Source: Rhodococcus zopfii NBRC 100606 = JCM 9919
GTDB taxonomy: Bacteria > Actinomycetota > Actinomycetes > Mycobacteriales > Mycobacteriaceae
Reading direction: 5' to 3'
Assembly: GCF_001895025.1 (NCBI RefSeq)
Contig: NZ_BCXI01000008.1
Span: 62,001-126,000 of the forward strand
Length of the DNA: 64,000 bases
This document shows positions 47,265 through 59,677 of the stretch, in pieces. Positions within the stretch are counted from its first letter, which is position 1. The number at the start of each line of letters is the position of its first letter. The translations under genes were made by a program, and so were the position numbers. The notes below the pieces were generated by a model that saw only the letters and a list, made by a program, of their open reading frames with translations, did not search any database and was not told the origin of the DNA.

Positions 47265-47587
47265 CTACGGAACCTCGCCGCCGGCGGCGTCCCCGGCCGG
47301 TTCCCGCAGCCAGCGTCGCCGGTGTTCGCGCAGCTCGGTGTCGCGGCGGGCGCGGTAGTGCGCCAATGCCGCGGACAGTAGATCCCCGAGATGGTGCCGG
47401 TGGTTGACCCGCGGTGTCCGTTCCGGGTCGATGTGCGGGGGCGGGATCCAGTCGGTGCGGCCCGGATACTCCCACTCTGTTGGTGCGACTCTCGTTTGCC
47501 GGCCGCCGGGTCCCTCGTGCACCAGCGCGTGGCAGGCGTCGCAGGCCGGGTCCTCGTGCTGATGTCGGTGGGGCCGCCGTCCTTCCA
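47265..47587 (-). pseudogene. 3' remnant of a DUF222/HNH (13E12-type) endonuclease gene
   Basis: Reading leftward from the element border, one frame gives WKDGGPTDI, the HNH continuation after His-His-x-x-Glu. A one-base frame change about 20 bases later gives DPACDACHALVHEGPGG, then TDWIPPPHIDPERTPRVNH, the usual C-terminus of DUF222/HNH proteins, and a stop at 47265. The frameshift shows decay. Together with the piece at 58,937-59,150 it reconstitutes a single gene interrupted by the element. Confidence 0.75.
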
Positions 47588-47610
47588 GACAAAGTATCCC
47601 AAACAGTACA
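47585..47610. repeat. Left attachment site (attL) of the integrative element
   Basis: CCA (47585-47587) marks the junction; element sequence begins with GA and then the 21-base arm at 47590-47610 (starts CAAAGTATCC). The arm is the imperfect inverse of 58915-58935 at the right end, with 18 of 21 positions identical. Left of CCA lies host HNH sequence. Confidence 0.75.
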
Positions 47611-47656
47611 CCACCGAGCTCATAATCTACGCTGGTCAAGGCCCGATTACACAGAA

Positions 47657-47690
47657 CTCGCCCCCGGCATTAGACCGCACCGGGGGCGAG
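47657..47690 (-). terminator. Terminator hairpin of the capsid gene
   Basis: Perfect 11-bp arms CTCGCCCCCGG (47657-47667) and CCGGGGGCGAG (47680-47690) with a 12-base loop, 21 bases beyond the capsid stop. In the leftward direction the hairpin is followed by TTCTGTGT. Confidence 0.7.
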
Positions 47691-47710
47691 TGTTGCGCGC
47701 TGGCCGCGCG

Positions 47711-48811
47711 TCAGAAGATCGACGGGCTGGTGTACTCCGCCGCCTCCGTGATTTGGAGGACAGCAGCAGCGCCGCGACGCTTGACGCCGACGCCGAAGCC
47801 GCGCGAGTAGTAGGACTCGATCAGCGGGTACGCGTTATCGGAGCCGGGGAACAACTGCAAGCCACGCAGCCCCGGCTGGGTGTGCTCGCGGAATCCCAAC
47901 GGTGCAGACTGCGCGCCCGACGCAATCGCTGTCACGTACCCCGACGGCACGAAGTGGTTCGTCACGACGTACGCCTCGCCGTACGAACCGAGGACCTTGA
48001 GGCCCTCATACGATGCGGGAGCGCGATCACCGATGATCGCCTCATTGCTGAGGAACGCAGGGGCATTGGCCGCAGGGATGAAGTCATTCGCCGCTTTGCC
48101 GCCGTCTGCTGCGACCTGGCCGGCTCGGAACGTCGTGATGATGTCCGCGTCATCCGGGTGGGCGAGAATGACGATCTGCGAACCGAAGTCAGCCCCGTAG
48201 CCGTGCTCGGTCACGTTGCGGATCAGGTAGTCGAGATCGACTGCCTCGAACGCTCCGCTGGTCGTGGCGTAGTGGTTGTGACCAGGAGCGAACGACTTGC
48301 CCGCATAGCTCGGCGGTGTCGAATCCGCTTCACCGTCCCAGAGTGAGTACACGGGGACGTTGTACTCGTTGACCGGGCGCGTGAGGGGGCCGGTCTTGGT
48401 CATCAGCGCGCCCATGACGTGCTGGAAGATCAGACGGTTGTCACCTTCGAGCACCGAAGCGTGGAGAGTTTCGAGCTGCCCAGCCTCAACCTGCGCAAGG
48501 TACATCCGAGTCCACGACTTGCGAATGTCGTACCAGCGCAACGGGTACCCGACTTCGAGCAGCGACGGCGATACCCTCGTGCTCTTCGGAACGCCGAACT
48601 CGCTGGCCTCCTCGAAGTCTGCTCCGCCTGTCGCCTGTTCGGTGTCGTCCTGCGCTCGGGTCGTGTTCTCCGTGAAGAGGTTCACGACCGCGCTACGGTT
48701 CGTGTTCAGCAGTTCCAGTGTCGTCTGGAACTCGGACCAGATTGTCCCCCAGTCTTTTCCGTCCTTGGTGGTATGAACGTCGCCGACTGTTGAGTAGCCT
48801 TGTGCGGCCAT
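47711..48811 (-). CDS. Phage major-capsid-like protein
   Basis: 366 residues from ATG 48811 with GGGAGG five bases upstream. The C-terminal third contains YVVTNHFVPSGYVTAIASG, GFREHTQPGLRGLQLFPGSD and YPLIESYYSRGFGVGVKRRG, a block I recognise from phage major capsid proteins of the HK97-fold type. Assignment rests on those motifs, not on a search. It has no adjacent scaffold, protease or portal. It is divergent from the gene at 48946. A capsid-only element would need a helper or could redirect another phage's particles; this is inference. Confidence 0.62.
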   Translation of the reverse strand: MAAQGYSTVGDVHTTKDGKDWGTIWSEFQTTLELLNTNRSAVVNLFTENTTRAQDDTEQATGGADFEEASEFGVPKSTRVSPSLLEVGYPLRWYDIRKSWTRMYLAQVEAGQLETLHASVLEGDNRLIFQHVMGALMTKTGPLTRPVNEYNVPVYSLWDGEADSTPPSYAGKSFAPGHNHYATTSGAFEAVDLDYLIRNVTEHGYGADFGSQIVILAHPDDADIITTFRAGQVAADGGKAANDFIPAANAPAFLSNEAIIGDRAPASYEGLKVLGSYGEAYVVTNHFVPSGYVTAIASGAQSAPLGFREHTQPGLRGLQLFPGSDNAYPLIESYYSRGFGVGVKRRGAAAVLQITEAAEYTSPSIF

Positions 48812-48868
48812 GAGAGCCTCCCTCTCGAAGTGGTTCGTAGGACCTTCCAGCAGCGACGATACGCGGAT

Positions 48869-48909
48869 TACGTTGCGTAACAGACGATTTGCGGTACCTA
48901 GCGCGCTAG
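48869..48909. promoter_or_regulatory. Two palindromes between the divergent capsid and ORF 48946 genes
   Basis: TTACG-TTG-CGTAA (48869-48881) and CTAGCGCGCTAG (48898-48909, a perfect 12-bp dyad) lie between the two divergent starts. GGTACC also occurs twice here (48893-48898 and 48920-48925). Likely operators of the element's regulator. Confidence 0.45.
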
Positions 48910-48945
48910 ACTGGACGCAGGTACCCAACACCAAGGGAGAGCAAC

Positions 48946-49407
48946 ATGATTGACGCCATCATCCGATCCGAAGCGCTGTGGCCGTACAACGCTCACCTGC
49001 TGGAACATCCACGCATTGAGGATTACGTACGGTTCGTGCTGCGCGGTCGGGGAGACGCGACCTACGACGGTCCAGCATTGATTACCCCTATCGGACTTGG
49101 TGATACGCCGAGCCGAGGTCACCGCGATCTACCGGGGTTCGCAGATGTCGAGTGCCTGACCGACCTACAGACGAACGTGGCGATGTATCCCGTCGATGAT
49201 CCGGCCGTGATGATCGCGAAGATGGCGTACATCATCAGCAAGGGGAACGCGTGCAACGCTTCGGGATTCGCCTGCGCGACCTGTTCTCATCCGCTGTCGG
49301 ACTTCGAGATCCTGTGGGTCAGCGCGCCACCGAGCATTATCGGCGTCCCCCTGTGCTCGACCTGCGCACCGGCGATCATCCTCGATTACAACCCAGTGAG
49401 GATCTGA
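48946..49407 (+). CDS. Hypothetical protein with two CxxC pairs
   Basis: 153 residues from ATG 48946 with AGGGAGAG upstream. No family was recognised. The C-terminal third holds ACATCSHPLSDFEILWV and PLCSTCAPAI, two CxxC knuckles about 35 residues apart that could bind one zinc. It is the first gene of the rightward late group, two bases before the next start. Confidence 0.6.
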   Translation: MIDAIIRSEALWPYNAHLLEHPRIEDYVRFVLRGRGDATYDGPALITPIGLGDTPSRGHRDLPGFADVECLTDLQTNVAMYPVDDPAVMIAKMAYIISKGNACNASGFACATCSHPLSDFEILWVSAPPSIIGVPLCSTCAPAIILDYNPVRI

Positions 49408-49408
49408 C

Positions 49409-50104
49409 GTGCCAAAGTGCAACGCAACCACGCAGTTCGACAACCGAGGCAGAGGCGGCAAGCCGTGCACCCGGTGGGCCGTGAACGGTAGCACCAAGTG
49501 CTTTGCGCACGGAGGTACCAAGGACACCACCACGCCGGAGGCTGTGGCGACTCGCCCCGACAACACTCGACAGCCGTGCAACGCTCGACGGGCGGACGGT
49601 GAACCCTGCGGCAACTACGCCATGCAAGGGGGCACCGTCTGCGTCAAGCACGGCGGACGAGTGCCCCTGACGAGGCAGTCCGCAGCAGCACGACTGCTCG
49701 ACCTGCGCCTGCGCGCCATCGGCGTTGTAGACGGAATGCTCGATGACGAATCACTCGAGCCTGCCGTACGACTGCGCGCAGCCCAGCTCGTGCTCGACCG
49801 CACCGGGCTGGGGCCGACCAGCCGCATCGAGCACGAGGTAGGCGACATCAAGCCCTACGAGCGACTGCTGACCGAGGTGAAGCGAGACGTAGCGCTCCCT
49901 CCCGGCGAGTCGGACGCGGACGAACCCCAACACGAGATCATCGACGCCGAAGTGGTCGAACCTACGGAGTCAGCGCAGGACTGGCCCGTGGGTAAGCCGG
50001 CCTGGGACCCGAACAGGAAGTACACCGAACCTGAGCCAGAGCCCGAACCCGAGGAGAACCACGTGGTCGTGGCGTTCCCGCGACCACCGAGGAACCATTA
50101 CTAA
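49409..50104 (+). CDS. Phage-type HGG zinc-knuckle protein, terminase-small-like
   Basis: 231 residues from GTG 49409. Two copies of a cysteine/HGG motif, KCFAHGG and TVCVKHGG, each preceded by a C...C pair (KPCTRWAVNGSTKC, EPCGNYAMQGGTVC), precede a helical segment (SAAARLLDLRLRAIGVVDGML). Proteins of this type lie near small terminase genes in actinophages. A Pro/Glu-rich tail (EPEPEPEPEE) follows. Whether it acts in packaging is inference. Confidence 0.6.
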   Translation: MPKCNATTQFDNRGRGGKPCTRWAVNGSTKCFAHGGTKDTTTPEAVATRPDNTRQPCNARRADGEPCGNYAMQGGTVCVKHGGRVPLTRQSAAARLLDLRLRAIGVVDGMLDDESLEPAVRLRAAQLVLDRTGLGPTSRIEHEVGDIKPYERLLTEVKRDVALPPGESDADEPQHEIIDAEVVEPTESAQDWPVGKPAWDPNRKYTEPEPEPEPEENHVVVAFPRPPRNHY

Positions 50105-50157
50105 CAGCCTGTGGATAACTTCCTGCACCTCGTCGCCCGGACCGGTAGGTTCGGGCG

Positions 50158-50334
50158 ATGACGTTCTCTCGGGAGTTCCTTGCTGAGTTCCACGCTGGCG
50201 TCCATCCGGACGATCCCCAGCTACTCGCTCGCATCTACGCAGATGAGCGCGCTGTCGCCTATCTGGAGGCCCTGGAGGGCGTGACTGATCTGTTGCGCCA
50301 GTACGGGCGCGGCCCGATCTCCCGATCAGGCTGA
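50158..50334 (+). CDS. Small hypothetical protein, 58 aa
   Basis: ATG 50158 to TGA 50334, 58 residues: MTFSREFLAEFHAGVHPDDP at the start and VTDLLRQYGRGPISRSG at the end, with a helical middle. No family known. It fits the gap between the zinc-knuckle gene and the HNH array gene in one clean frame, but its ribosome site is weak. Confidence 0.5.
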   Translation: MTFSREFLAEFHAGVHPDDPQLLARIYADERAVAYLEALEGVTDLLRQYGRGPISRSG

Positions 50335-50365
50335 GCTGTCGCACCCTGTCGATACCATCACGAAC

Positions 50366-51973
50366 GTGACAAGCACGGACAGCCGCATCAATACCTGCAA
50401 AGTGGACGGCTGCGCCCGTAAGGTCTCGATTAAGAGGCATGCACTATGCGAGAAGCACTACCAAGCCTTCTGGAAGTACGGCGACCCGAACGGCAGCGAC
50501 AAACGCGTTCAAGGAGGCCCGTGCGCAGTACCCGACTGCGGACAACCCCGGAGTAGCCGCGAGGGGTACTGCCAGAAGCACAGACTCCGGTTCCTCCGCA
50601 CGGGCTCGCTCGAAAAGCGGAAGCCACTCGACTGCGCGCAACCACACTGCGCACAGCCCGCGAAAGTTAAGGGCCTATGCCAGCGGCACTATGACAAGGC
50701 ACGAGGGTCCGCTAGGAATACCACGCGTATCTGCACCGTGGAGGGGTGCGATAGACCTACCAAAGCGCGCGGTCGGTGTCCTCGTCACTACTCGGAGTTG
50801 CAGCGGGCTGGAGCACTTGACTCCGCGCCCCTATTGTCCGACGAGCGGACCTCCTCCTCCCCCGCGGAGTGCGTAGAGTCCAACTGCACCCGGACGCCCA
50901 CCAAAGATGGGCGCTGCGTGATCCACCACAACCGGTTTCGCGCAGGCCACCGTATCGACCGGCTGTGCAGAGGTTGTGGTGCGGATCTCACGGGTAAGCC
51001 CAGCGGCCAGCGGTACTGCACCAGGGACTGCAAGCCTCGATGCTCTGGTCCCGAATGTGACCGCATCGCGATCGGACGTGGACTCTGCTCCTCACACCTG
51101 AAGCAAAAGAATGCGGGGGAGGTTCTACGCCCAATTGGGACTCGTGTCGCGAGGCCGTCCAATGCCCCCTGCGATTGGTGCGACGATCCGGTCGGGGAGA
51201 ACAACACCGGTAGGTTTTGCTCTGTTGTGTGCCGAAATCTAGCTAGAAGGCATGCAGCGGCTGCTATTTCAGGAGAATGCGCACAGTGCGGAACGACTAT
51301 CGACTATCTCGCTCCAGCCAACGGAGGAAAGAGACTAACCCCTGTCTCCAAGCGCCTATGTGACGATTGTCGACACCGGAGCGCATCGTTGTACATGTCC
51401 GCTGAGGCGCTTCGCGAACGAGACGGCGACGACTGCTCCCTGTGCGGTCTACCCGTTCCGAAAGATGCAGTAAGGCCGCACCCGCTGGCACCTGAGGTAG
51501 ACCACGTGCTGCCGATTTCGCGCGGTGGAACGCACGACCCAGAGAACCTCGCGCTGGCTCACAAGACTTGCAATATCACGAAGGGCAACAAGCCCGCTCG
51601 ATGGAAGCGCAACCCCGACGAGGTCGCACCACTCCTCGCCGAATGGGAAGCAAGCGGCATGATACCAACGCGAACCGAGTGCTCCGTCGATGACTGTGAC
51701 CGTCGCGCCGAGTCGTATGGGATGTGCCAGAAGCATCGGCGTCGATTCCTCAAACACGGCACAACTGAGCTACCACCGAAACCCACGATCTGTTCCGAAG
51801 ACGGTTGCACGAAACCCATACGCGCTCGCGGCCTTTGCAAGCCTCATTACCAACGCGGTCTCAACAGAGGGAAGACCTGCTCAGAGGACGGATGCGAAAA
51901 GGAATCCAACACACGGGGACTCTGCAAACCGCACTATAACCGGTGGTTGCGCGACCGACCCGCTCGCACGTAA
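50366..51973 (+). CDS. HNH nuclease embedded in a zinc-knuckle array
   Basis: 535 residues from GTG 50366. Residues about 10-245 hold six repeats of the form C(x4)C...G(x)C(x2)H(Y), e.g. CTVEGCDRPTKARGRCPRHY and CSGPECDRIAIGRGLCSSH, plus a different C4 ribbon. Further C-x2-C pairs lead to an HNH domain: CSLCGLPVPKD, EVDHVLPISRGGTHDPENL, AHKTCNITKGNK. Three more knuckles (CSVDDCDRRAESYGMCQKH, CSEDGCTKPIRARGLCKPHY, CSEDGCEKESNTRGLCKPHY) finish the chain. I know no named family with this architecture. HNH proteins near capsid genes often aid packaging; here it could also be defensive. Confidence 0.7.
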   Translation: MTSTDSRINTCKVDGCARKVSIKRHALCEKHYQAFWKYGDPNGSDKRVQGGPCAVPDCGQPRSSREGYCQKHRLRFLRTGSLEKRKPLDCAQPHCAQPAKVKGLCQRHYDKARGSARNTTRICTVEGCDRPTKARGRCPRHYSELQRAGALDSAPLLSDERTSSSPAECVESNCTRTPTKDGRCVIHHNRFRAGHRIDRLCRGCGADLTGKPSGQRYCTRDCKPRCSGPECDRIAIGRGLCSSHLKQKNAGEVLRPIGTRVARPSNAPCDWCDDPVGENNTGRFCSVVCRNLARRHAAAAISGECAQCGTTIDYLAPANGGKRLTPVSKRLCDDCRHRSASLYMSAEALRERDGDDCSLCGLPVPKDAVRPHPLAPEVDHVLPISRGGTHDPENLALAHKTCNITKGNKPARWKRNPDEVAPLLAEWEASGMIPTRTECSVDDCDRRAESYGMCQKHRRRFLKHGTTELPPKPTICSEDGCTKPIRARGLCKPHYQRGLNRGKTCSEDGCEKESNTRGLCKPHYNRWLRDRPART

Positions 51974-52041
51974 CGCATACGCAGAATGCGGCGCGACAGC
52001 CGGCCGCCCTTGTAATGGACGGTCGGCCACGTCATCTGAAC

Positions 52042-52701
52042 CTACCCCGGCTTCGGCACGCGTACCCAATAGCTCGACCTTGCGTCGCCAGCGAGCATTA
52101 GGCCAACGGGTAGCGACAGCTCTCGTCCTTTCCGATGGTCTACGACCTTGACCGCCTTCATCAGGGCCTCGTCCCACAAGGGGCCACCCGAACGACGCTC
52201 GGACGTCTTCACGTACGTCACCTCCACAGTCCCCGACCTTTCCACCACCTCGTTGGGTGGCTCTGGAACTTCATCCGGCACCAATATTTTCCGCTCCCTG
52301 GATGGCTGGGATTTGGGCGGTTCGCTTGCGTTGGCAAGCAACGCTTTACGTGTTTCCACGATGGCGTTGTAGAACGCATCCGATACGGTGATCCGGTCCA
52401 GATCGGTCAACCCCAGTGCGTCCAGATCGATCATGGCCGCGATGGTGTAGTCATCGACTGCACTGTCGTCCTCGTCCCACTCATCGAAGTAGCGCCGCCG
52501 AATGTCATGGGAGTTGCCACCCCTCGCGACATAGGTGACGTGGCTGTCCATCGCACGACCGGACGCACTGATGGCGCGAACCTGTAAACAGTCGCGATCA
52601 CTTAGCTCCTGCCAGATCCGCTGCGCCAACTGCTCGGCACCGTGGCGATCGTGGTGAGTCTTGAACAGCCGGAAAGCAAGTGGCTTGCGTCTGGCGCTCA
52701 T
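52042..52701 (-). CDS. Unknown protein, second gene of an element operon
   Basis: 219 residues from ATG 52701, which overlaps the stop of the upstream gene (ATGA). I recognise no domain. The N-terminus is basic (MSARRKPLAFRLFKTHHDRH); an acidic block YFDEWDEDDSAVDDYT is followed by helical residues and a charged middle region (EPPKSQPSRERKILVPDEVP). No signal or membrane segment. The coupled partner and isolated position inside a mobile element suggest a cargo function. Confidence 0.55.
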   Translation of the reverse strand: MSARRKPLAFRLFKTHHDRHGAEQLAQRIWQELSDRDCLQVRAISASGRAMDSHVTYVARGGNSHDIRRRYFDEWDEDDSAVDDYTIAAMIDLDALGLTDLDRITVSDAFYNAIVETRKALLANASEPPKSQPSRERKILVPDEVPEPPNEVVERSGTVEVTYVKTSERRSGGPLWDEALMKAVKVVDHRKGRELSLPVGLMLAGDARSSYWVRVPKPG

Positions 52702-53072
52702 GGCAGGGCCTCACGTCCGAGAAATGACAACTGGGTGTCATAGGTGACGTCGATGTCTACGGCTTCGACGTCACCGACCCAAACCTGCGTACGGATGAAC
52801 TCGACCGACGCGACACTCGTGTGTAGTGCGTCAGCGATTGCTTTCCCGATCGTCACCGCTTCGGAGACGTGGTCATAGCGCGGATTGTCGTGGGCAAAAA
52901 CGAGGTCCATCGTGTTCCCACCGCATAGGTACACATCGTGGAAATGCGGGGTGGCCTCGAACTGCTGCATGCCCAGACCGTCGATCCACTGGTCAAGTAT
53001 CGCACCGGGAAGGCGGTTCGGCGAGTTGAACTCGAAGGAGACAGCATAGGTGCTGTCGTAGCGATCGTTCAT
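52698..53072 (-). CDS. Unknown protein, first gene of an element operon
   Basis: 124 residues from ATG 53072, with AAGGGG seven bases upstream; an in-frame GTG/ATG further upstream is less likely. Sequence such as HFHDVYLCGGNTMDLVFAHD and IRTQVWVGDVEAVDIDVTYD suggests a beta-rich small fold. No family was recognised. It is coupled by a 4-bp overlap with the 219-residue protein. Confidence 0.55.
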   Translation of the reverse strand: MNDRYDSTYAVSFEFNSPNRLPGAILDQWIDGLGMQQFEATPHFHDVYLCGGNTMDLVFAHDNPRYDHVSEAVTIGKAIADALHTSVASVEFIRTQVWVGDVEAVDIDVTYDTQLSFLGREALP

Positions 53073-53433
53073 AGGTTGCGCCCCTTGGGTCGGGAACCAA
53101 TCCGAACCTGGGCACGAACGAACCCAGCTCGGATTCGTTCGGTACGTGCAGCGGAGCAGTGCTGCGCCGTCCATGATGCACGCCGAGACGGGCCAGGTCA
53201 AACCCTGAAACCTATTGACAAGCGCAGCCTAACCTCACGAACCGCGCCGACCAGCGGGGTCGTTGTCTGACGGGCCTCGCTCGGCTAACGTGGCGTCTGG
53301 TCGAACGATTTCGACCCCTACGCGTTCTCCGTCCAAGTGCGGAGAGGCAACCACGGATCACTTCGCCTGCTCGTAGCGAAGAACCGAGAGTGGCGCGACG
53401 GTACGGGCTTCCATTTCGCTCTGGGAGCACCCT
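53073..53433. promoter_or_regulatory. 361-bp divergent intergenic control region of the element
   Basis: Between the leftward unknown operon and the rightward HTH operon. It contains TTGACA (53215-53220), an 18-bp dyad GGTCGAA-CGAT-TTCGACC (53299-53316) and a 6-bp stem TCTCCG/CGGAGA (53326-53345). The dyad is a good candidate operator for the HTH protein encoded 118 bp downstream. Confidence 0.45.
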
Positions 53434-53709
53434 ATGCCTCGCGCAGTCACTACCTTTGGCCCTCATGGTCGGCAACCCCTCGCCGACTTCATCGCCCGCG
53501 ATAGGTGGACGTACGTCCTACTCGGCGATGAACTCGGCGTCAGCGAGCGCCACGTCCGAAACACCGTCAACGGGTGGACGCGTCCGAATGCGATACTTCG
53601 CGAACGCCTTCCGGAACTCTTCGAGGTTCCGCTGTCGGGCCTGTTCACCGAGTCGGCCATCGCCGAAGCTTTTGCGACCCGCCCGAAGCGCACGGCGTCG
53701 GCGTCATGA
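53434..53709 (+). CDS. HTH DNA-binding protein
   Basis: 91 residues from ATG 53434 with GGGAG upstream. The middle reads RDRWTYVLLGDELGVSERHVRNTVNGWTRPN, a helix-turn-helix of the Cro/XRE type. It is first in a rightward operon whose next genes overlap by 4 bases. Could be the element's repressor, activator or a recombination directionality factor; the order gives no way to choose. Confidence 0.65.
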   Translation: MPRAVTTFGPHGRQPLADFIARDRWTYVLLGDELGVSERHVRNTVNGWTRPNAILRERLPELFEVPLSGLFTESAIAEAFATRPKRTASAS

Positions 53710-53852
53710 CCGCCGAAGAGTTCGCACAACGTGCCCGTGAGTCCGCCCTCGCAGGTGCAGCAGCGCAAGGGTTCTCGCCTACGGTCAGCGACCCGGACGC
53801 GGTGCGTCTGCTGCGCACACTGCTGCGTGGGGGTGAGCATGTCCGGACATGA
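53706..53852 (+). CDS. Small hypothetical protein, 48 aa, coupled to the HTH gene
   Basis: ATG 53706 overlaps the stop at 53709 (ATGA). The product is 48 residues, MTAEEFAQRARESALAGAAA at the start and LLRTLLRGGEHVRT at the end, probably helical. Size and place suit a directionality factor, but no motif supports that. Confidence 0.5.
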   Translation: MTAEEFAQRARESALAGAAAQGFSPTVSDPDAVRLLRTLLRGGEHVRT

Positions 53853-53991
53853 ACAATGGGCCCCTCACCGAAGCGAGAGACCCAATGCCCAAGGGGGATA
53901 CAACACCGAACGGGGATCCAATCCGCTCGATCTCGATTTTATCGGGCGAACTCCCCTGAACGACTGCGCCTCGCAGGAGTGGTCACTATGA
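53839..53991 (+). CDS. Small hypothetical protein, 50 aa, coupled to the primase
   Basis: ATG 53839 overlaps the preceding gene and its TGA (53989-53991) overlaps the primase ATG (53988). The 50-residue product begins MSGHEQWAPHRSERPNAQGG. The double coupling is the reason for listing it; sequence alone does not show homology. It could instead be non-coding filler. Confidence 0.4.
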   Translation: MSGHEQWAPHRSERPNAQGGYNTERGSNPLDLDFIGRTPLNDCASQEWSL

Positions 53992-56012
53992 CGGAAACCA
54001 TGCGGGGCGCGACAGACTCGGTACGCACAGGCGATGATACCGAGCCTGCCGCTGACTCGAACAATATTCGGCTGCAATCGCTTCTGTCTCTCACCCAACG
54101 CGGATGGCTACTGTTCCCGTGTCATTCGATGAACCGAGGCCGGTGCTCCTGCGGGAAGGGAGACGACTGCACGAGCCCCGGCAAGCACCCGCGAACAGCA
54201 CGCGGAGTCAAGGACGCCACCAATGACGTTGACCGTCTGCGTGCTTGGCACAGCGCCTACGGTGACAGCGCGAACTGGGCACTGGCAACAGGCCGTGAGT
54301 CCGGGGTGTTCGTTGTCGATGTCGACAGAAAGCACAACGGCTTCGAGTCCTTCGCAGCATGGGAGGCCGAGCACGGGGAGCTGACGACTCCGCTGCGCTC
54401 CCTCACGGGAGGCGGCGGTAAGCACTTGTTCTTCGAGCCCCCCGATGACGTCGTGATCGGCAACCGGACAGGCTGGCTTCCCGGCGTCGATGTTCGAGGT
54501 GAGGGCGGGTACGTTCTCCTGCCTCCGTCGAATCACCAGTCTGGCGGAGCGTACTGCTGGCAGAGCGACGGAGAGCCCGCGAAAGCGCCGCTGACGCTCA
54601 CGCAGAGCATCGCAAAGCGCGAGCGCGACAACTCGACTGCCAGCGCAGAAACGGACCTCTACGCGCCCGTTCTCGAAGGAAACCGTAATGACGAGGTGTT
54701 CAAGCGCGCGTGCCGGCATTTTCGGGAACTCGGCCAGAGCCGGGACGAGCAATGGCGACGTGACGAGGTATTTCGCAGAATCACGAGCTGCGAGATCGAG
54801 TCTCGTAAGACGTTCCCAGACGACGAGATCATGCGGACCGTCCAGAGTGCGCAGGACGCTGTGCGTGCGAAAGGCGAGGATCTCCCGAGCACCAAGCGGG
54901 ACAAGCTCATCCAGGATCGACTGGACTGGCACGAGGCCAATAAGGAAGCACTGCGCCTGATCAGCGAGCGCGACGCACAGGACAGCAAAGGACGAGTCGG
55001 TCGCTTCTCCCGCGGCGGATCGTTCATTCTGGACCAACCCGAGGTCCCCACCGCTGTCTGGGGTTCAGGTGAGCAAGTGCTCTGGGCAGAGGGTGAGGCC
55101 CTGATGCTCACCGGTCATCAAGGAACCGGGAAGACCACCCTTGCGCAACAAGTCATTCTGCACAGGCTGGGTATCCGCTCCGGCCCGTTCCTGGGGTTCG
55201 ACGTTCCCGTCGTGATGCGGCCCGTCCTGTACCTCGCAATGGACCGGCCAACCCAGGCTGCTCGCAGCATGCGGCGCATGGTCGGCGAAGAACACCGGGC
55301 AGTCCTCGATGAGTACGTGGTCGTGTGGTCTGGGCCGTTACCGTTCGATCCGCTTGGGTCGCCGTCCATCGTCGCCGACTGGGCCACGGAGTACGTCCCC
55401 GACCTTTCGGTCGTCGTCGTGGACTCGGTCAAGGACTACGCAGCCATGCGCAGCCTCTCGGATGACAGCATCGCGTCGGGCCTCAACTCGTCGTGGCAGG
55501 AGTTGATCGCCCGCAAGATCGAGGTCGTGTTGCTCCATCATGAGCGCAAGGCAGCCAACGGCGAGAAGCGACGCATCGCACTCGACAACGTGTTCGGGTC
55601 CACTCTGCTGACCTCGGGCACAGGAAGCGTCTTCGGCATCGAAGGCAACCCCGGCGATGAGGTCGTCACGCTGCACCATCTGAAGCAACCCGCCGAGACG
55701 CTGCCTCCGTTGGAGGTCCACCACGATCACCCGTCGGGTACGAGCACCGTCCACAGCGGTCCTCGCACTGTGCGCGAAGTTCTGGCACTCGCAGGCGACA
55801 ACGGCGCGACCGCAGCAGAGATCATCGCACGACTCGGCCTGAAGGACACGGAGAACAACCGCCGCAAGGTCCGCAAGGAGATCAGCGACATGGCCGATAC
55901 GGCAGTTATTCCAGGGGGTCAGAACCCCGACGGACGCGGCAAACTCCCCGACCGTTATCGGTTGATCGCACCAACGACCACGCGACAGACCACGCGACAA
56001 CCCGACTTGTGA
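53988..56012 (+). CDS. Primase-polymerase/RepA-like ATPase replication protein
   Basis: 674 residues from ATG 53988, overlapping the preceding stop. N-terminal prim-pol (AEP) domain: zinc-type cluster CHSMNRGRCSCGKG...C...GKHP (about 45-67), catalytic D111xD113 in FVVDVDRKHNG, GGKHLFF and WLPGVDVRGEGGYVLLPPS. The second part is a RecA/RepA-like ATPase with P-loop GHQGTGKT (376-383) and LSVVVVDSVKD (Walker B). The C-terminus holds a winged-helix-like TAAEIIARLGLKDTENNRRKV. In satellites and phiRv1-type elements such proteins initiate element replication. The downstream iterons fit that. Confidence 0.85.
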   Translation: MTETMRGATDSVRTGDDTEPAADSNNIRLQSLLSLTQRGWLLFPCHSMNRGRCSCGKGDDCTSPGKHPRTARGVKDATNDVDRLRAWHSAYGDSANWALATGRESGVFVVDVDRKHNGFESFAAWEAEHGELTTPLRSLTGGGGKHLFFEPPDDVVIGNRTGWLPGVDVRGEGGYVLLPPSNHQSGGAYCWQSDGEPAKAPLTLTQSIAKRERDNSTASAETDLYAPVLEGNRNDEVFKRACRHFRELGQSRDEQWRRDEVFRRITSCEIESRKTFPDDEIMRTVQSAQDAVRAKGEDLPSTKRDKLIQDRLDWHEANKEALRLISERDAQDSKGRVGRFSRGGSFILDQPEVPTAVWGSGEQVLWAEGEALMLTGHQGTGKTTLAQQVILHRLGIRSGPFLGFDVPVVMRPVLYLAMDRPTQAARSMRRMVGEEHRAVLDEYVVVWSGPLPFDPLGSPSIVADWATEYVPDLSVVVVDSVKDYAAMRSLSDDSIASGLNSSWQELIARKIEVVLLHHERKAANGEKRRIALDNVFGSTLLTSGTGSVFGIEGNPGDEVVTLHHLKQPAETLPPLEVHHDHPSGTSTVHSGPRTVREVLALAGDNGATAAEIIARLGLKDTENNRRKVRKEISDMADTAVIPGGQNPDGRGKLPDRYRLIAPTTTRQTTRQPDL

Positions 56013-56088
56013 AAACCACCCGACGACCACGCGATACCACGCGACGACAGATCCGAAAAGCGCTGGTAGACCACGCGACGACCACCAG
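55976..56088 (+). repeat. Iteron cluster, probable replication origin
   Basis: GACCACGCGAC-type 10-11-mers occur at 55976-55986, 55988-55998, 56025-56034, 56036-56045 and 56069-56079, the first two inside the primase 3' end, and GACCACCAGA at 56079-56088. Direct orientation and spacings of 11-37 bases suit Rep-bound iterons. They lie next to the primase gene and a long hairpin, followed by an AT-rich stretch near 56,205-56,225. Confidence 0.6.
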
Positions 56089-56105
56089 ATTTCACGAGAT
56101 GCGCT

Positions 56106-56158
56106 GACCACCAGACAAAAGCGCGCGCTTTAACAGCGCGCTTTGACTGGTGGTGGTC
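56106..56158 (+). promoter_or_regulatory. Large hairpin downstream of the iterons
   Basis: GACCACCAG and GCGCGC at 56106-56126 can pair with GCGCGCTTTGAC and the TGGTGG tract up to 56158. AAAGCGCGCGCTTT at 56118-56131 is itself a perfect palindrome. It may be a terminator for the primase operon or an origin structure. The arms carry the same GACCACC core as the iterons. Confidence 0.55.
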
Positions 56159-56308
56159 GGTTGGTGAAGGGATGCATCACACGTACCTATCGACCGAACC
56201 GACTGTTGAACAAGTTATTTCGCGAGGATAGCTCCGATACGACTGCTCCCGCGTACACCACAAGGCCCAGTGGCCGGCCAGGTAACCCAATCCCGAACGG
56301 AGACGCCA

Positions 56309-56512
56309 ATGATCACCTGCTTCCTCTGTAAGCGCCAGTGGCCGAAGAGTAGGTCCGTCCACGTCGAGCGAGGCCACTGGGTCTGTGGAGAACCACGCCA
56401 CTGTCGCGAGTACGCGCATACTCCCGCCGCACGCCAACTCATTCGAGATCCCCGCCCGCTGTGGCAGCGCGACCGTCAGGAGTACGAATCGCAGCGCCGA
56501 GAGGCTCCCTGA
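56309..56512 (+). CDS. Small zinc-finger protein, 67 aa
   Basis: ATG 56309, with CGGAGA upstream. The sequence CFLCKRQWPKSRSVHVERGH, then WVCGEPRHC, holds C-x2-C and C...C pairs plus His residues, suitable for a zinc ribbon, followed by a basic helix (AARQLIRDPRPLWQRDRQ). No match known. It lies between the origin region and the resolvase. Confidence 0.5.
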   Translation: MITCFLCKRQWPKSRSVHVERGHWVCGEPRHCREYAHTPAARQLIRDPRPLWQRDRQEYESQRREAP

Positions 56513-56668
56513 CGGACGTTCTGGCTTGCGTCGATAGTTGGTTGGCTGATCACGCTAGGCGCATCTGAGGGCATCTGAGTCCGCCTGTTTGCGTTCGTCA
56601 CCGTCGCCTTTTTCAATCAATCGCTCGATGGTTTACATGCCATTGGTTGACGACAGGAGGATGGGCAG

Positions 56669-57295
56669 ATGAAGGTGATTGGATACGGCCGCGTTTCGAC
56701 TGGCCGACAAGAGGTTTCGCTTGACGTGCAGCGCGCAGCGGTCTAGTCGGAGGCGGCGCGTCGCGGGTGGGATGACCTGATGTGGCTGGAGGACAAGGGC
56801 ATCAGCGGCGCGACGGTCAACCGAGCTTCCTTGCGGGCAGCACTGGCACTGCTCGAAGCCGGGCAAGCGGAGGCGCTGGTCTGCACGAAGGTGGACCGTC
56901 TGTCGCGCACGGTGGCAGACTTCGCCGATCTGCTCTCTACCGCGCAACGGCAGGGATGGAACCTGATCGTGCTGGACCTGGGCATCGACCTTGCGACACC
57001 GATGGGACGCGCAATGGCGCAGGTCGCAGCGGTGTTCGCCGAGCTGGAACGATCGATGATCGGGCAGCGAACGCGAGAAGCGCTGGCCGTCAAGCGGAGT
57101 CAAGGAATCCGGCTCGGCAGGCCAGCGACGACGCCCTCCGACGTGATCGCCCGCGTCCTGCGCGAACGGGCGAGCGGAGCGACGCTGCAAGCCATTGCGG
57201 ACGGGTTGAACGCTGACGACGTGCCGACCGCGCAAGGGGGAGCGAGTTGGAAGCCTGGGACAATTGCTGCGCTACTCAGACGCGCCGCTGCCTGA
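56669..57295 (+). pseudogene. Small serine resolvase/invertase with an in-frame amber codon
   Basis: The frame opens MKVIGYGRVSTGRQEVSLDV with catalytic Ser10 and continues QRAAV, then TAG at 56744-56746, then SEAARRGW and 170 residues of a normal resolvase domain (KVDRLSRTVADFADLL, AQVAAVFAELERSMI) and a HTH tail. A GAG or CAG codon would fit at the TAG. An alternative start at 56780 would lack Ser10. So it is a nonsense pseudogene, unless a suppressor tRNA reads it. Confidence 0.8.
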
Positions 57296-57308
57296 CTCAT
57301 GCCACGAC

Positions 57309-57342
57309 AAAGGTCCGCTACTCGCTTGAGTGGCGGACCTTT
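57309..57342. terminator. Bidirectional terminator between convergent recombinase genes
   Basis: AAAGGTCCGCTACTC (57309-57323) pairs with GAGTGGCGGACCTTT (57328-57342), 14 of 15 positions, across a GCTT loop. A-rich and T-rich flanks give it polarity in both directions. It separates the resolvase and the integrase, which are convergent. Confidence 0.85.
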
Positions 57343-57360
57343 GCGTTGCGCGCGAGCGGT

Positions 57361-58893
57361 TTACGCCCGCCATAGGATCGTCACGCGCGCCTCGAGGACC
57401 GCGAGTTGATGCGCTCGCTTGCGATCAGCGAACTCCTCGGCGGTCTCCGACTTGCGATGGTGCAGCGTGTAGGGCATACCCTCGGGGTAAGGCCCAATGA
57501 CGATTCTGTCGATCACCGCGCCGAGGATGGCGTTGCGCCGGGCGACGGTCTCGTCCTCCCAGTTGGCGCGCAACTGCTCGACCGACTCGATACCAGCGAG
57601 GACGGATGAGCGTGCCGCGTCGAGGAGTTGAGCCTCGTTGGAGGCGATCCGGCTGGTGATCCGCTCGCGCTGACGAACGTATCCCGTCTTATCGCCGTCG
57701 AACAGGCCGTCATAGTAGTCGTCCTCGAGTCGTCGCAGCGCGTGGTGATCCTTGTCGATGGTTGCGCGTAGCGCCACGTGTTCGTCGCTGACCTGCTCGT
57801 CGGGTTCAAGCGCGGGAGTGTCGAGGCGGGCAAGTGCGCCCTCGACCACCCAGGTTTCCAACGGCTCGCGGGCGATTCGCGAACTGTTCGTGCAGCCCTT
57901 GGTGCGCGACATGGCACAGACCCAACCACGCGTGCCGCGCCCACCGCTGTAGACCGAAGCGACCATTGACCGACCACAGCCACCGCAGCGCACCAAACCG
58001 GACAGCACGTACTTGCCTTTGCCTGGTCCTTCGCCGAACCCCTTGCCTGTGCGGGCGGGATCCGAGAGCAGTGTCCGCAGTTTGTCCCAGTCGTCCTTGG
58101 AGACCAGGGCGGGCCAGTCCGCAGGGTACAGCTGGCCGTCATACTCGCGCATCGCGATGATCGTTGGCGTCATCAGCGCACGCTTGAGCGGTGAGCTGCG
58201 CCACGCGTTGCCGCGGTTGGTCTTGCGCCCTTCCTCGTTCCAGCGCTTGACAATCGAGTTCAGGCTGCCGCCGCTGAGTAGGTGCGCGTATGCGTCCCGT
58301 AGCATCGCCGCGTGCTCGGGATGCTCGCGCAAGGTCAGGACTTTACCGTCCTCGTCCTTGACCAATTCATAGCCGAACGCTGCGCCTGCTCCGTGGTACT
58401 TCCCTTCCTGCGCACGTTGTTTCGCTGCGCGCTTCACGCGACGGCTCGTGTCCCGACTCGACTTGTTCGCATGTGCGACCTCGCCGCGCGCCGAGTAGAT
58501 GCCGTGGTCGGTGTCCAACTGCATGTTGCCCGTCGAGGACTTGATCGCCCGCCCGAATTGCTCGGCGATTTCGATAAGGTTCTCCAGGTCACGCGGTTCG
58601 CGTGCGACCCTGTCGAGGTCATACGCGATCAGACCGTCGTGCTCGCCGCGGCGTAATGCTGTGAGCATCTGCTCGAACACAGGCCGTACGTTGCGACGGA
58701 CCTTGGACCCGTCGGGTAACTCGACGGTGGTTTTCCTCCATGCGGAGGTGTCGTTGTCCACGTACACGTGGGTGACAGTCCAGCCCAGATCAGCGGCGAG
58801 TTCCCGGCAGTCCTGCTCCTGGCGCTCGACGCCGACCATACGGTCGTCGCGGTCCGAGCTGATGCGCACGTAGATGGCGGTTCGTTCGTTCAT
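57361..58893 (-). CDS. Large serine recombinase (site-specific integrase)
   Basis: 510 residues from ATG 58893. The resolvase domain has AIYVRISSD with Ser12 or Ser13 as nucleophile, VERQEQDCRELA and YDLDRVAREPRDL. The middle is a Recombinase domain (GKYHGAGAAFGYELV...). A zinc ribbon follows: RCGGCGRSMVASVYS and WVCAMSRTKGCTNSS. Then a coiled coil (LRATIDKDHHALRRLEDDYYDG) and a C-terminal tail. It is adjacent to attR, as expected for an integrase of its element, and the host target is a DUF222/HNH gene as for phiRv1. Confidence 0.93.
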   Translation of the reverse strand: MNERTAIYVRISSDRDDRMVGVERQEQDCRELAADLGWTVTHVYVDNDTSAWRKTTVELPDGSKVRRNVRPVFEQMLTALRRGEHDGLIAYDLDRVAREPRDLENLIEIAEQFGRAIKSSTGNMQLDTDHGIYSARGEVAHANKSSRDTSRRVKRAAKQRAQEGKYHGAGAAFGYELVKDEDGKVLTLREHPEHAAMLRDAYAHLLSGGSLNSIVKRWNEEGRKTNRGNAWRSSPLKRALMTPTIIAMREYDGQLYPADWPALVSKDDWDKLRTLLSDPARTGKGFGEGPGKGKYVLSGLVRCGGCGRSMVASVYSGGRGTRGWVCAMSRTKGCTNSSRIAREPLETWVVEGALARLDTPALEPDEQVSDEHVALRATIDKDHHALRRLEDDYYDGLFDGDKTGYVRQRERITSRIASNEAQLLDAARSSVLAGIESVEQLRANWEDETVARRNAILGAVIDRIVIGPYPEGMPYTLHHRKSETAEEFADRKRAHQLAVLEARVTILWRA

Positions 58894-58914
58894 AACCTCG
58901 AAAATACGCGGCGC

Positions 58915-58939
58915 TGTACTGTCTGTGACACTTTGACCA
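58915..58939. repeat. Right attachment site (attR) of the integrative element
   Basis: The 21-base arm at 58915-58935 begins TGTACTGTCTGTG and ends CACTTTG, followed by A and the shared CCA (58937-58939). Host HNH sequence continues to the right. Joining 58936 to 47588 through CCA makes a 48-bp site with two inverted arms separated by ACCAGA, the shape of a serine-integrase attP with CA as central dinucleotide. Confidence 0.75.
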
Positions 58940-59150
58940 TTCGGTGATGTGATGCACCGCGGTCAAGGTGGCCGGTGCGTCGCAGCCGGGTCGGGTGCAG
59001 CCATGCGAGGCGGCGTGCCACCCCGACCTTCCGGGCGCCGTTGACGCGGCGGGCGGCGTCGGCGGCGGAGATCGGCAGGGTGCCGATGAGGAAGTCGTTG
59101 ATCGAGCGGCACCCACCGACATTCAGGTTCGGGGAATCACCGTCCAGTCC
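58937..59150 (-). pseudogene. 5' remnant of the same DUF222/HNH gene
   Basis: One frame reads LNVGGCRSINDFLIGTLPIS then AADAARRVNGARKVGVARR, a DUF222 N-terminal motif. After a frame change, CTRPGCDAPATLTAVHHITEW is the first half of an HNH domain, ending at the element's border. Because about 200 residues expected between the two are missing, the target gene has also suffered an internal deletion. The HNH half here continues as KDGGPTDI on the other side of the element. Confidence 0.75.
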
Positions 59151-59311
59151 GCCGCGCCCCGGTCCTCGCTGCCGGGCTGCTTTCACTGTCACCTTCCCGG
59201 TTTCCGAATCGTCATACAGGTGACGGGACGGAGTTCGGTGCCCGGCTCTCGTCGCCGCGTCCCGACCTACCAACCCGTTCCGATTCCCAGGACTGTCGGA
59301 CGGAGAGACTC

Positions 59312-59677
59312 ATGGTCACCACATACATCGCAGTCACCGTCGTCGCCGCCATCGTGATGGCGAGTGCTGCCGGGCTGAGCTTGCTTCAGCACAACTCGGT
59401 CCTGGCCGCAGCCGACGTCGTGGAGGTACCTCGGTCGTGGATGCCCCGATTGGGTGTACTCCTCGGGGCAGGTGCAGTCGGACTGATCGCGGGGTTCGCG
59501 GTCCCCGTGCTCGGCGTGGCCGCGGCGGTCGGTCTCGTGCTTTACTTTCTCGCAGCCGCCGGGGCCCACATGCGGGTGCGCGACCACGATCCGCGGCGGA
59601 TTGCGAACGTCCTCACGTTCCTCGGACTCGCGATCGCTGCCCTCGTCTCGGGCCTGCTGTACCACGCCCCGTGGTGA
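59312..59677 (+). CDS. DoxX-like small membrane protein
   Basis: 121 residues from ATG 59312. Four hydrophobic helices: VTTYIAVTVVAAIVMASAAG, LGVLLGAGAVGLIAGFAV, LGVAAAVGLVLYFLAAAGA and VLTFLGLAIAALVSGLLY, with the DoxX-like motif HMRVRDHDP. Homologues are annotated DoxX family or hypothetical. No adjacent gene suggests a role. Confidence 0.7.
   Translation: MVTTYIAVTVVAAIVMASAAGLSLLQHNSVLAAADVVEVPRSWMPRLGVLLGAGAVGLIAGFAVPVLGVAAAVGLVLYFLAAAGAHMRVRDHDPRRIANVLTFLGLAIAALVSGLLYHAPW

Follow-up and report, generated by a model that had tools for sequence, protein, structure and literature searches.

An 11,352-bp element at positions 47585-58936 of the window, the whole 64-kb stretch of Rhodococcus zopfii NBRC 100606 DNA analysed here, is on its sequence probably an integrated phage satellite. 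We base this reading on its precise insertion, on a gene core that recurs in related loci without other virion genes, on a major capsid protein (MCP) whose phylogeny separates such loci from phages, and on purifying selection. Satellites in general are small integrated elements that have genes for integration and replication and an incomplete virion set, and the element fits this description.

The element is delimited on both sides by the same 3-bp core, TGG (CCA on the plus strand), and its junctions with the interrupted host gene read as follows:

47265..47584, minus strand: C-terminal portion of the DUF222/HNH gene that the insertion interrupts, outside the element; text very similar in paralogue L193
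47585..47587: attachment core CCA (TGG on the gene strand), left end, adjoining the C-terminal DUF222/HNH part; same position in the sister element L047
58937..58939: attachment core CCA, right end, the same 3 bp as at the left end
58940..59273, minus strand: what is left of the N-side of the DUF222/HNH gene, which seems truncated and lies outside the element

The DUF222/HNH reading frame is interrupted at TGG inside its HNH motif, and three DUF222 paralogues of the same genome (L187, L190 and L192) carry the motif H-H-I-T-E-W-x-x-G-G-x-T-D-I unbroken. A sister element of 11,391 bp in Rhodococcoides kroppenstedtii DSM 44908 (L047, also L094) breaks the motif at the identical TGG. Joining the inner ends gives a predicted attP that is roughly symmetrical, ACTTTGTC-TGG-TCAAAGT, which fits the symmetry expected for a large serine integrase. 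The GC content is 62.5% inside the element vs 70.1% in the rest of the window. The host gene itself seems reduced on its N-terminal side to about 100 aa, with an unrelated gene starting at 59312, so the insertion target either already was, or later became, a remnant.

Between these ends lie the genes and sites that carry the argument:

47656..47691, minus strand: terminator-like hairpin 3′ of the capsid gene, predicted 14-bp stem
47711..48811, minus strand: MCP, 366 aa, family of the Patience and Adjutor phage capsids; phrog_3990 'major head protein', E 1.2e-92
49409..50104, plus strand: small-terminase-like protein (TerS), 231 aa, with N-terminal Cys/HGG zinc-type motifs; phrog_10899, E 1.2e-9
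53988..56012, plus strand: Prim-Pol/PriCT/RecA-like helicase fusion, probable start 53988; PF09250, E 4e-37; PF13481, E 1e-17; phrog_6012 helicase, E 6e-67
55976..56078, plus strand: iteron array of 103 bp, probable origin, four exact GACCACGCGA plus near copies, overlapping the Prim-Pol 3′ end
56669..57295, plus strand: small serine recombinase of resolvase/invertase type, broken by a TAG at 56744 past the N-terminal serine motif
57361..58893, minus strand: large serine integrase, 510 aa, with Resolvase, Recombinase and Zn-ribbon domains; 80% identical in L047

A preliminary description, made from the letters alone, had placed the element at 47588-58936 in a DUF222/HNH gene, and junction comparison confirms the target and, to within the 3-bp core, the coordinates. 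It had also named an integrase, a replication module with a probable origin and a single capsid-like gene, all of which Pfam and PHROG matches and the iteron array support. Its statement that portal, protease, large terminase (TerL), tail and lysis genes are missing holds as well, none of them having a Pfam or PHROG match among the 10 open reading frames (ORFs) scanned in the element. New relative to that description are the TerS-like ORF at 49409-50104, the broken recombinase at 56669-57295 and two small conserved ORFs at 53706-53852 and 56309-56512.

The MCP profile matches the capsid structures of Patience (8GIU) and Adjutor (8SAJ) with E 1e-117, and the phrog_3990 model matches none of 14 control genomes. 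Seven chains in each of the two PDB entries, together with a published comparison that sets Adjutor beside other T=7 phages (PMC10635136), indicate that shells of this MCP family are T=7. This MCP is carried by 153 phage records, at an identity of 40.4% or less, and most of the phages listed with it have genomes of 56-72 kb. TerS is more divergent: a profile built from the four sister elements introduced below matches the PDB small terminases 6W7T (1e-4) and 7JOQ (3e-4), and one built from 26 relatives matches 7JOQ (E 4e-10) and 6W7T (E 7e-9), with phrog_10899 matched at 1e-3 by 17 of the 26. Its AlphaFold model was poor (mean predicted local distance difference test, pLDDT, of 50) and was not relied on.

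A wider search shows how this capsid gene is accompanied. Within the family, 46 of 401 genomes, counting the element's own, have the MCP at E 1e-10, and the best 80 of 99 named actinobacterial loci with MCP were taken from a species-level genome collection. Most belong to Mycobacteriales; Micromonospora, Nocardioides and Quadrisphaera are also represented, along with the Micrococcales genera Cryobacterium, Demequina, Microbacterium, Rathayibacter and Piscicoccus. As structural queries we used 32 head- and tail-region proteins from Kurnik, LilyPad, Nocardia phage P3.1 and Riparian, all of which carry the MCP; these queries match all four source phages, including via one another's proteins. No match to them was found in any of the 80 loci, nor in a second set of 48 loci that partly overlaps the first (duplicates L034, L036, L039, L040 and L046 excluded), with the limit that unrelated terminase or portal families could escape a 32-query set. 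None of the 25 PHROG families listed, out of 47 matched by 84 ORFs of nine elements, is a TerL, portal or tail family.

As a control we took the best 80 of 284 IMG/VR contigs with MCP, considering at most 10 kb on each side of the gene. A structural query other than the MCP is matched in 79 of these 80 viral contigs: TerL, portal, major tail or tape measure in 69, other head genes in 10 further short contigs. The sole satellite-like contig is L203 (IMGVR_UViG_2802429070_000003), whose MCP shares 87% identity with the one in Mycolicibacterium iranicum (L108). In the 69 contigs the small recombinase, Prim-Pol and tyrosine integrase have no match and TerS has two, a count that phage genes lying more than 10 kb from the MCP escape.

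The satellite genes, on the other hand, recur. Within 13 kb of the MCP, TerS-like genes are found in 63 of the 80 loci, Prim-Pol in 60, the small serine recombinase in 62 and a tyrosine integrase in 58; the large-serine-integrase query matched 18 loci, some of them edge-cut or possibly cross-matches. At least one other core gene is present in 75 loci, the remaining five being on contigs that cut the locus, and of the 55 loci that extend 9.5 kb each way, 37 combine integrase, recombinase, Prim-Pol and TerS. Because the satellite queries come from the overlapping 48-locus set, part of these positive matches arises by construction; the lack of structural genes is free of that circularity. Alignment queries were needed for such searches, single-protein queries having matched no relative (capsid in viral contigs, Prim-Pol in genome contigs).

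The MCP trees point the same way. Four of 98 MCP rows were dropped from the first tree (L145, with a stop; L167, with a stop and short; L169 and L171, short). This careful tree of 95 MCPs groups the window copy and its three nearest relatives at 100/100 and unites 17 actinophage MCPs in one clade (100/98), with the distant PodoMan apart. To the second tree we added 79 phage-type viral contigs and L203, leaving out the long rows PodoMan and Triscuit, which gave 173 rows. There a single branch divides 78 satellite from 95 phage MCPs with a Shimodaira-Hasegawa-like approximate likelihood ratio test (SH-aLRT) value of 94 (quick search, no bootstrap), in an unrooted tree of sequences selected by similarity to this MCP family. 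L203 falls among the satellite MCPs.

Both this split and the repeated occurrence of the core speak against a recent deletion remnant, that is, an ordinary large prophage that has lost its other structural genes and decayed. Such a remnant would account for one head gene and TerS being all that is left and for the broken small recombinase, and MCP relatives are common in phages of 56-72 kb, one of them with a related primase as well. Yet none of the 80 loci matches a structural query, 37 of the 55 uncut ones keep the whole core, one branch parts their MCPs from those of phages, the genes are under purifying selection and the ends are exact. Moreover, the MCP gene stands alone and opposite in strand to TerS, whereas in four annotated phages (Kurnik, LilyPad, Nocardia phage P3.1 and Riparian) it is co-directional with TerL and portal. 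Neither MCP tree nor gene content nests the element within one full phage lineage, and the case that the preliminary description had named, together with a failure to excise, as fatal to its own proposal, a deletion remnant of one ordinary large prophage, was not borne out by these comparisons. We regard a decayed prophage as very improbable.

Three loci have an MCP 72-75% identical to that of the window: L047; L048, in Rhodococcoides kyotonense JCM 23211; and L035, in Rhodococcus sp. G-MC3, where the contig ends inside the element. With the window copy they make up what we call the four sister elements. All four have the MCP (on the opposite strand), an ORF here named orfA and TerS in the same order, and in the two complete sisters, L047 and L048, a helix-turn-helix (HTH) protein and Prim-Pol come next. 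L048 and L035 are inserted elsewhere, adjoining Flp/Tad-pilus-like genes (the pilus label is our own reading). With dS between 0.30 and 1.69, the ratio of nonsynonymous to synonymous substitution rates (dN/dS) is 0.10-0.32 for the MCP, 0.15-0.29 for TerS, 0.155 for the integrase against L047, 0.165 for Prim-Pol (L047 vs L048 only) and 0.25-0.46 for orfA. Such low values indicate that the core genes are under purifying selection.

The slot 3′ of TerS, by contrast with this constant order, has a different content in each of the four sister elements. In the window these parts comprise:

48812..48945: divergent intergenic region between MCP and orfA, putative promoter/operator, with conserved blocks in the four sister elements
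48946..49407, plus strand: orfA, 153 aa, no function assigned, present in the four sister elements
50366..51973, plus strand: HNH endonuclease with repeated zinc-finger units, 535 aa, cargo slot; PF01844, E 5e-11; phrog_1271, E 2e-52
52042..52701, minus strand: orfC, 219 aa, no function assigned, cargo slot
52698..53072, minus strand: orfD, 124 aa, no function assigned; partial relative in L035, 57% over 54 aa

The window slot thus holds the HNH protein, orfC and orfD. That of L047 encodes proteins of 304 and 117 aa; that of L048 a DUF3800 protein, a 153-aa protein, a C5 methylase, an HNH protein matching a type II restriction-enzyme model and a 100-aa protein; and that of L035 an 834-aa N6 methylase and two short ORFs. 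For the window HNH protein and orfC no match was found in the sister loci (by tblastn for HNH; L035 stops at its contig end). No Pfam or PHROG match was obtained for orfA at 0.1. The region at 48812-48945 has a possible regulatory role, perhaps as an operator for a common regulator. As slot neighbours, the DUF3800 protein of L048 and the 304-aa protein of L047 are candidate new anti-phage genes.

Genes of restriction-modification type in two of the four slots (L048 7436-9624, L035 13945-16449) and the HNH endonuclease in the window bring up another explanation, an anti-phage island that keeps MCP and TerS mainly to poison the assembly or packaging of invading phages and of which the mobility is rare or lost. 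Satellites do interfere with their helpers, which can be counted in its favour. Against it, the iterons are kept, integrase and Prim-Pol are under purifying selection (Prim-Pol as measured between L047 and L048 only), and the different sites of related elements in the sisters speak for movement. We consider this explanation unlikely as the main one; it is not exclusive of satellite transfer, with which an anti-phage role is compatible.

The replication module has its own signature. Exact GACCACGCGA occurs four times in the whole window, always at 55976-56078, and none of 100 shuffles reaches four; with one mismatch allowed there is no window-wide enrichment (13 found vs 19.9 expected), and it is the clustering of the copies, rather than their window-wide frequency, that is the notable feature. 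A hairpin adjoins the array:

56106..56158: hairpin with arms GACCACCA...TGGTGGTC and inner stem AAAGCGCGC

At the corresponding place L047 and L048 have different repeat words (around CCAGAACAGCTC and GAACGGCTC) and a common palindrome, TCTGGTCTCTAGAGACCAG. Their Prim-Pol proteins are 80% identical to each other, and only 354-363 residues align with the window protein, at 42-44%. Since repeat words and Prim-Pol both differ between the window and these two sisters, iteron and protein seem to change together. Upstream of the window Prim-Pol, at 53848-53993, a short frame in a different phase is similar to the N-terminus found in the sisters, and the start of the window protein may thus have shifted. 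SaPI-type phage-inducible chromosomal islands (PICIs; SaPI, Staphylococcus aureus pathogenicity island) and P4 likewise have replication modules of their own with origin repeats.

A Prim-Pol/helicase and iterons of its own would equally suit an integrative, self-replicating plasmid-like element that had recruited capsid and TerS for another use. Against it, no relaxase or transfer gene is matched among the 10 scanned ORFs, and the element DNA is unmatched in 72,556 plasmid records (near mode, which needs about 85% identity). The same ORFs gave no portal or TerL with which to fill a particle. To this origin we give little credence.

The integrase, 80% identical in L047, shares only 39% identity with that of L048. 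Comparing 57361-58893 with L048 14506-16035, the C-terminal tails (RKRAHQLAVLEARV..WRA) are nearly identical, unusually conserved relative to the rest of these two proteins. The small serine recombinase is intact in L047 (76% identical) and was not found in L048/L092. Besides the window copy, L114 alone among 56 named matches has a stop in this gene. In that locus (L114/L044, Gordonia asplenii), a second satellite, the genes for TerS, recombinase and integrase are placed to the other side of the MCP. The stop may mean that in the sister clade the large integrase suffices.

Several observations weigh against the satellite reading. The broken small recombinase may also indicate that the window copy is partly decayed. 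The portal and TerL models PF04860 and PF03354 are unmatched in the window genome and in the three sister genomes, which leaves no known resident helper of either family there; these models match 4 and 3 of 14 control genomes, respectively, and do not cover all phages. None of the 153 phage records with this MCP is named after Rhodococcus, and the window TerS has no match at 1e-5 in the phage collection, its weak match being to Nocardia phage P3.1 only (4e-5, small search). Phages, too, can have other core genes: Micrococcus phage Kurnik (L088, 56 kb) combines this MCP (40.4%) with a related primase (39.8%). MCP and TerS distances correlate over 23 loci (rho 0.67), and joint evolution of the two was considered and given up: without near-copies and the sister clade rho falls to 0.25 (16 loci, 91 of 999 permutations as high). 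For this recheck 29 of 42 loci were kept and ten module pairs compared. The strongest pairs were MCP-recombinase (rho 0.32, 8/999) and Prim-Pol-TerS (0.34, 38/999), on which we base no claim, and integrase distances are uncorrelated with those of Prim-Pol, recombinase and TerS. From these comparisons we conclude only that the elements appear to be mosaic.

As the phage with the nearest MCP, Kurnik is a possible lead to ancestor or helper-type phages. The remaining genes of the element are small:

53434..53709, plus strand: HTH protein, 91 aa, 70% identical in L047 and 51% in L048, a possible regulator or excision factor
53706..53852, plus strand: 48-aa ORF overlapping the HTH stop (ATGA), resembling L047 6983-7129 and L048 10654-10797 in a by-eye comparison
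56309..56512, plus strand: Cys-rich 67-aa ORF, conserved in L048 (58%) and in L047 (53% over 43 aa)

Taken as a satellite, the element would work as follows. On entry of a helper phage it would excise, and the Prim-Pol/helicase would replicate it from the iterons. TerS would mark its DNA for the large terminase of the helper, and the MCP would build shells, or co-build them with the scaffold, protease and portal of the helper, that take up the element; helper tails and lysis would then release it. Packaging could place one copy in small shells or several copies in full-size ones, and six copies would make 68 kb (6 x 11.35), a length in the 56-72 kb range usual for phages that carry this MCP. 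No capsid-remodelling gene was recognised in the scans of the element's ORFs, such small proteins being hard to recognise. Helper dependence, excision and packaging are what we infer from gene content, which supports this far the earlier proposal of a replicating, helper-dependent satellite: genes for integration and replication, MCP and TerS recur without other virion genes, and the phage-type control contigs differ in just this.

As an alternative to the satellite, the preliminary description had proposed a Rhodococcus relative of phiRv1. The 13E12 repeats are DUF222/HNH genes, and phiRv1 has capsid and primase-type genes as well as a prohead protease. It measures 9.3 kb and sits, with its serine recombinase, inside a REP13E12 repeat (PMC9317374, PMC3986857); for phiBN42_1 a prohead protease is listed in PMC3986857. 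Small size, serine recombinase and a 13E12/DUF222-type target are common to both elements, and phiRv1 makes a good analogue in these respects. The support is for an analogy. The repeat reported for phiRv1, GGTTGGCCGTGG (PMC3986857), is absent from both strands at 47401-59100, where the element's ends share only TGG.

The kind of element is already known. The closest published class is that of the candidate PICIs of Mycobacterium, regions with an integrase and an MCP and in some cases a helicase, a terminase or a scaffold protein (Gauthier et al. 2023, PMC10654092). Their integrases are of tyrosine or serine type and their capsids diverse, and phiRv1 and phiRv2 are counted among them; like the present element they combine integrase and MCP in one small phage-like region, in a different host genus. 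A 2023 survey of actinobacterial prophages further supposed that elements under 15 kb are possible satellites (PMC10023795). Compared by description, the available portion of PMC10654092 is confined to Mycobacterium and does not give the set of MCP, TerS, Prim-Pol and small serine recombinase, a satellite-only MCP clade, iterons or a cargo slot. Likewise, we found no description in the open-licence literature of a core that recurs, also outside Mycobacterium, or of the one-branch MCP split, the iterons or the slot.

Other satellites with capsid genes differ in how much they bring along. Capsid-forming PICIs (cf-PICIs) are described with a full head and packaging set of MCP, protease, portal, connectors, TerL, TerS and HNH (PMC10690885); the present element resembles them in its own capsid gene and TerS and in having an HNH gene, but of the set that includes portal, protease and TerL only MCP and TerS were found. 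The Streptomyces phage satellites MulchRoom and MiniFlayer, also actinobacterial and with capsid genes of their own, have TerL, portal and scaffold genes and, as described there, no recognisable primases, whereas here a Prim-Pol occurs without those three (PMC10690885). Some SaPIs redirect packaging through their own TerS, with scaffolding proteins shrinking the helper capsid (PMC10690885). SaPI-type PICIs and P4 are thus alike in being integrated and, for some SaPIs, in having a TerS, and unlike in that they remodel the helper capsid while a complete MCP of its own is found here.

Beyond the single element, we tentatively propose, as plausible and little more, that the loci form one old satellite lineage spread over several Actinomycetota orders. 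Its MCP would have come once from phages of the Patience/Adjutor type, or share an ancestor with theirs, and have stayed separate since, mostly together with TerS. Integrases (tyrosine or large serine), Prim-Pol and defence cargo would have been exchanged, and only two helper parts, the shell subunit and the DNA selector, would have been replaced.

Capsid-gene satellites have so far comprised cf-PICIs, the Streptomyces satellites and the Mycobacterium candidates. The core and the satellite-only MCP clade offer a simple marker for similar elements in other actinobacteria, and the variable slot with its restriction-modification type genes is a place to seek new anti-phage systems. phiRv-like 'prophages' can now be set beside a testable mechanism. 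The question raised is whether a satellite can win packaging by supplying a shell protein and a small terminase only; if so, this would be a third route of capsid piracy, between the remodelling of helper shells by SaPI and P4 and the carriage of whole heads by cf-PICIs.

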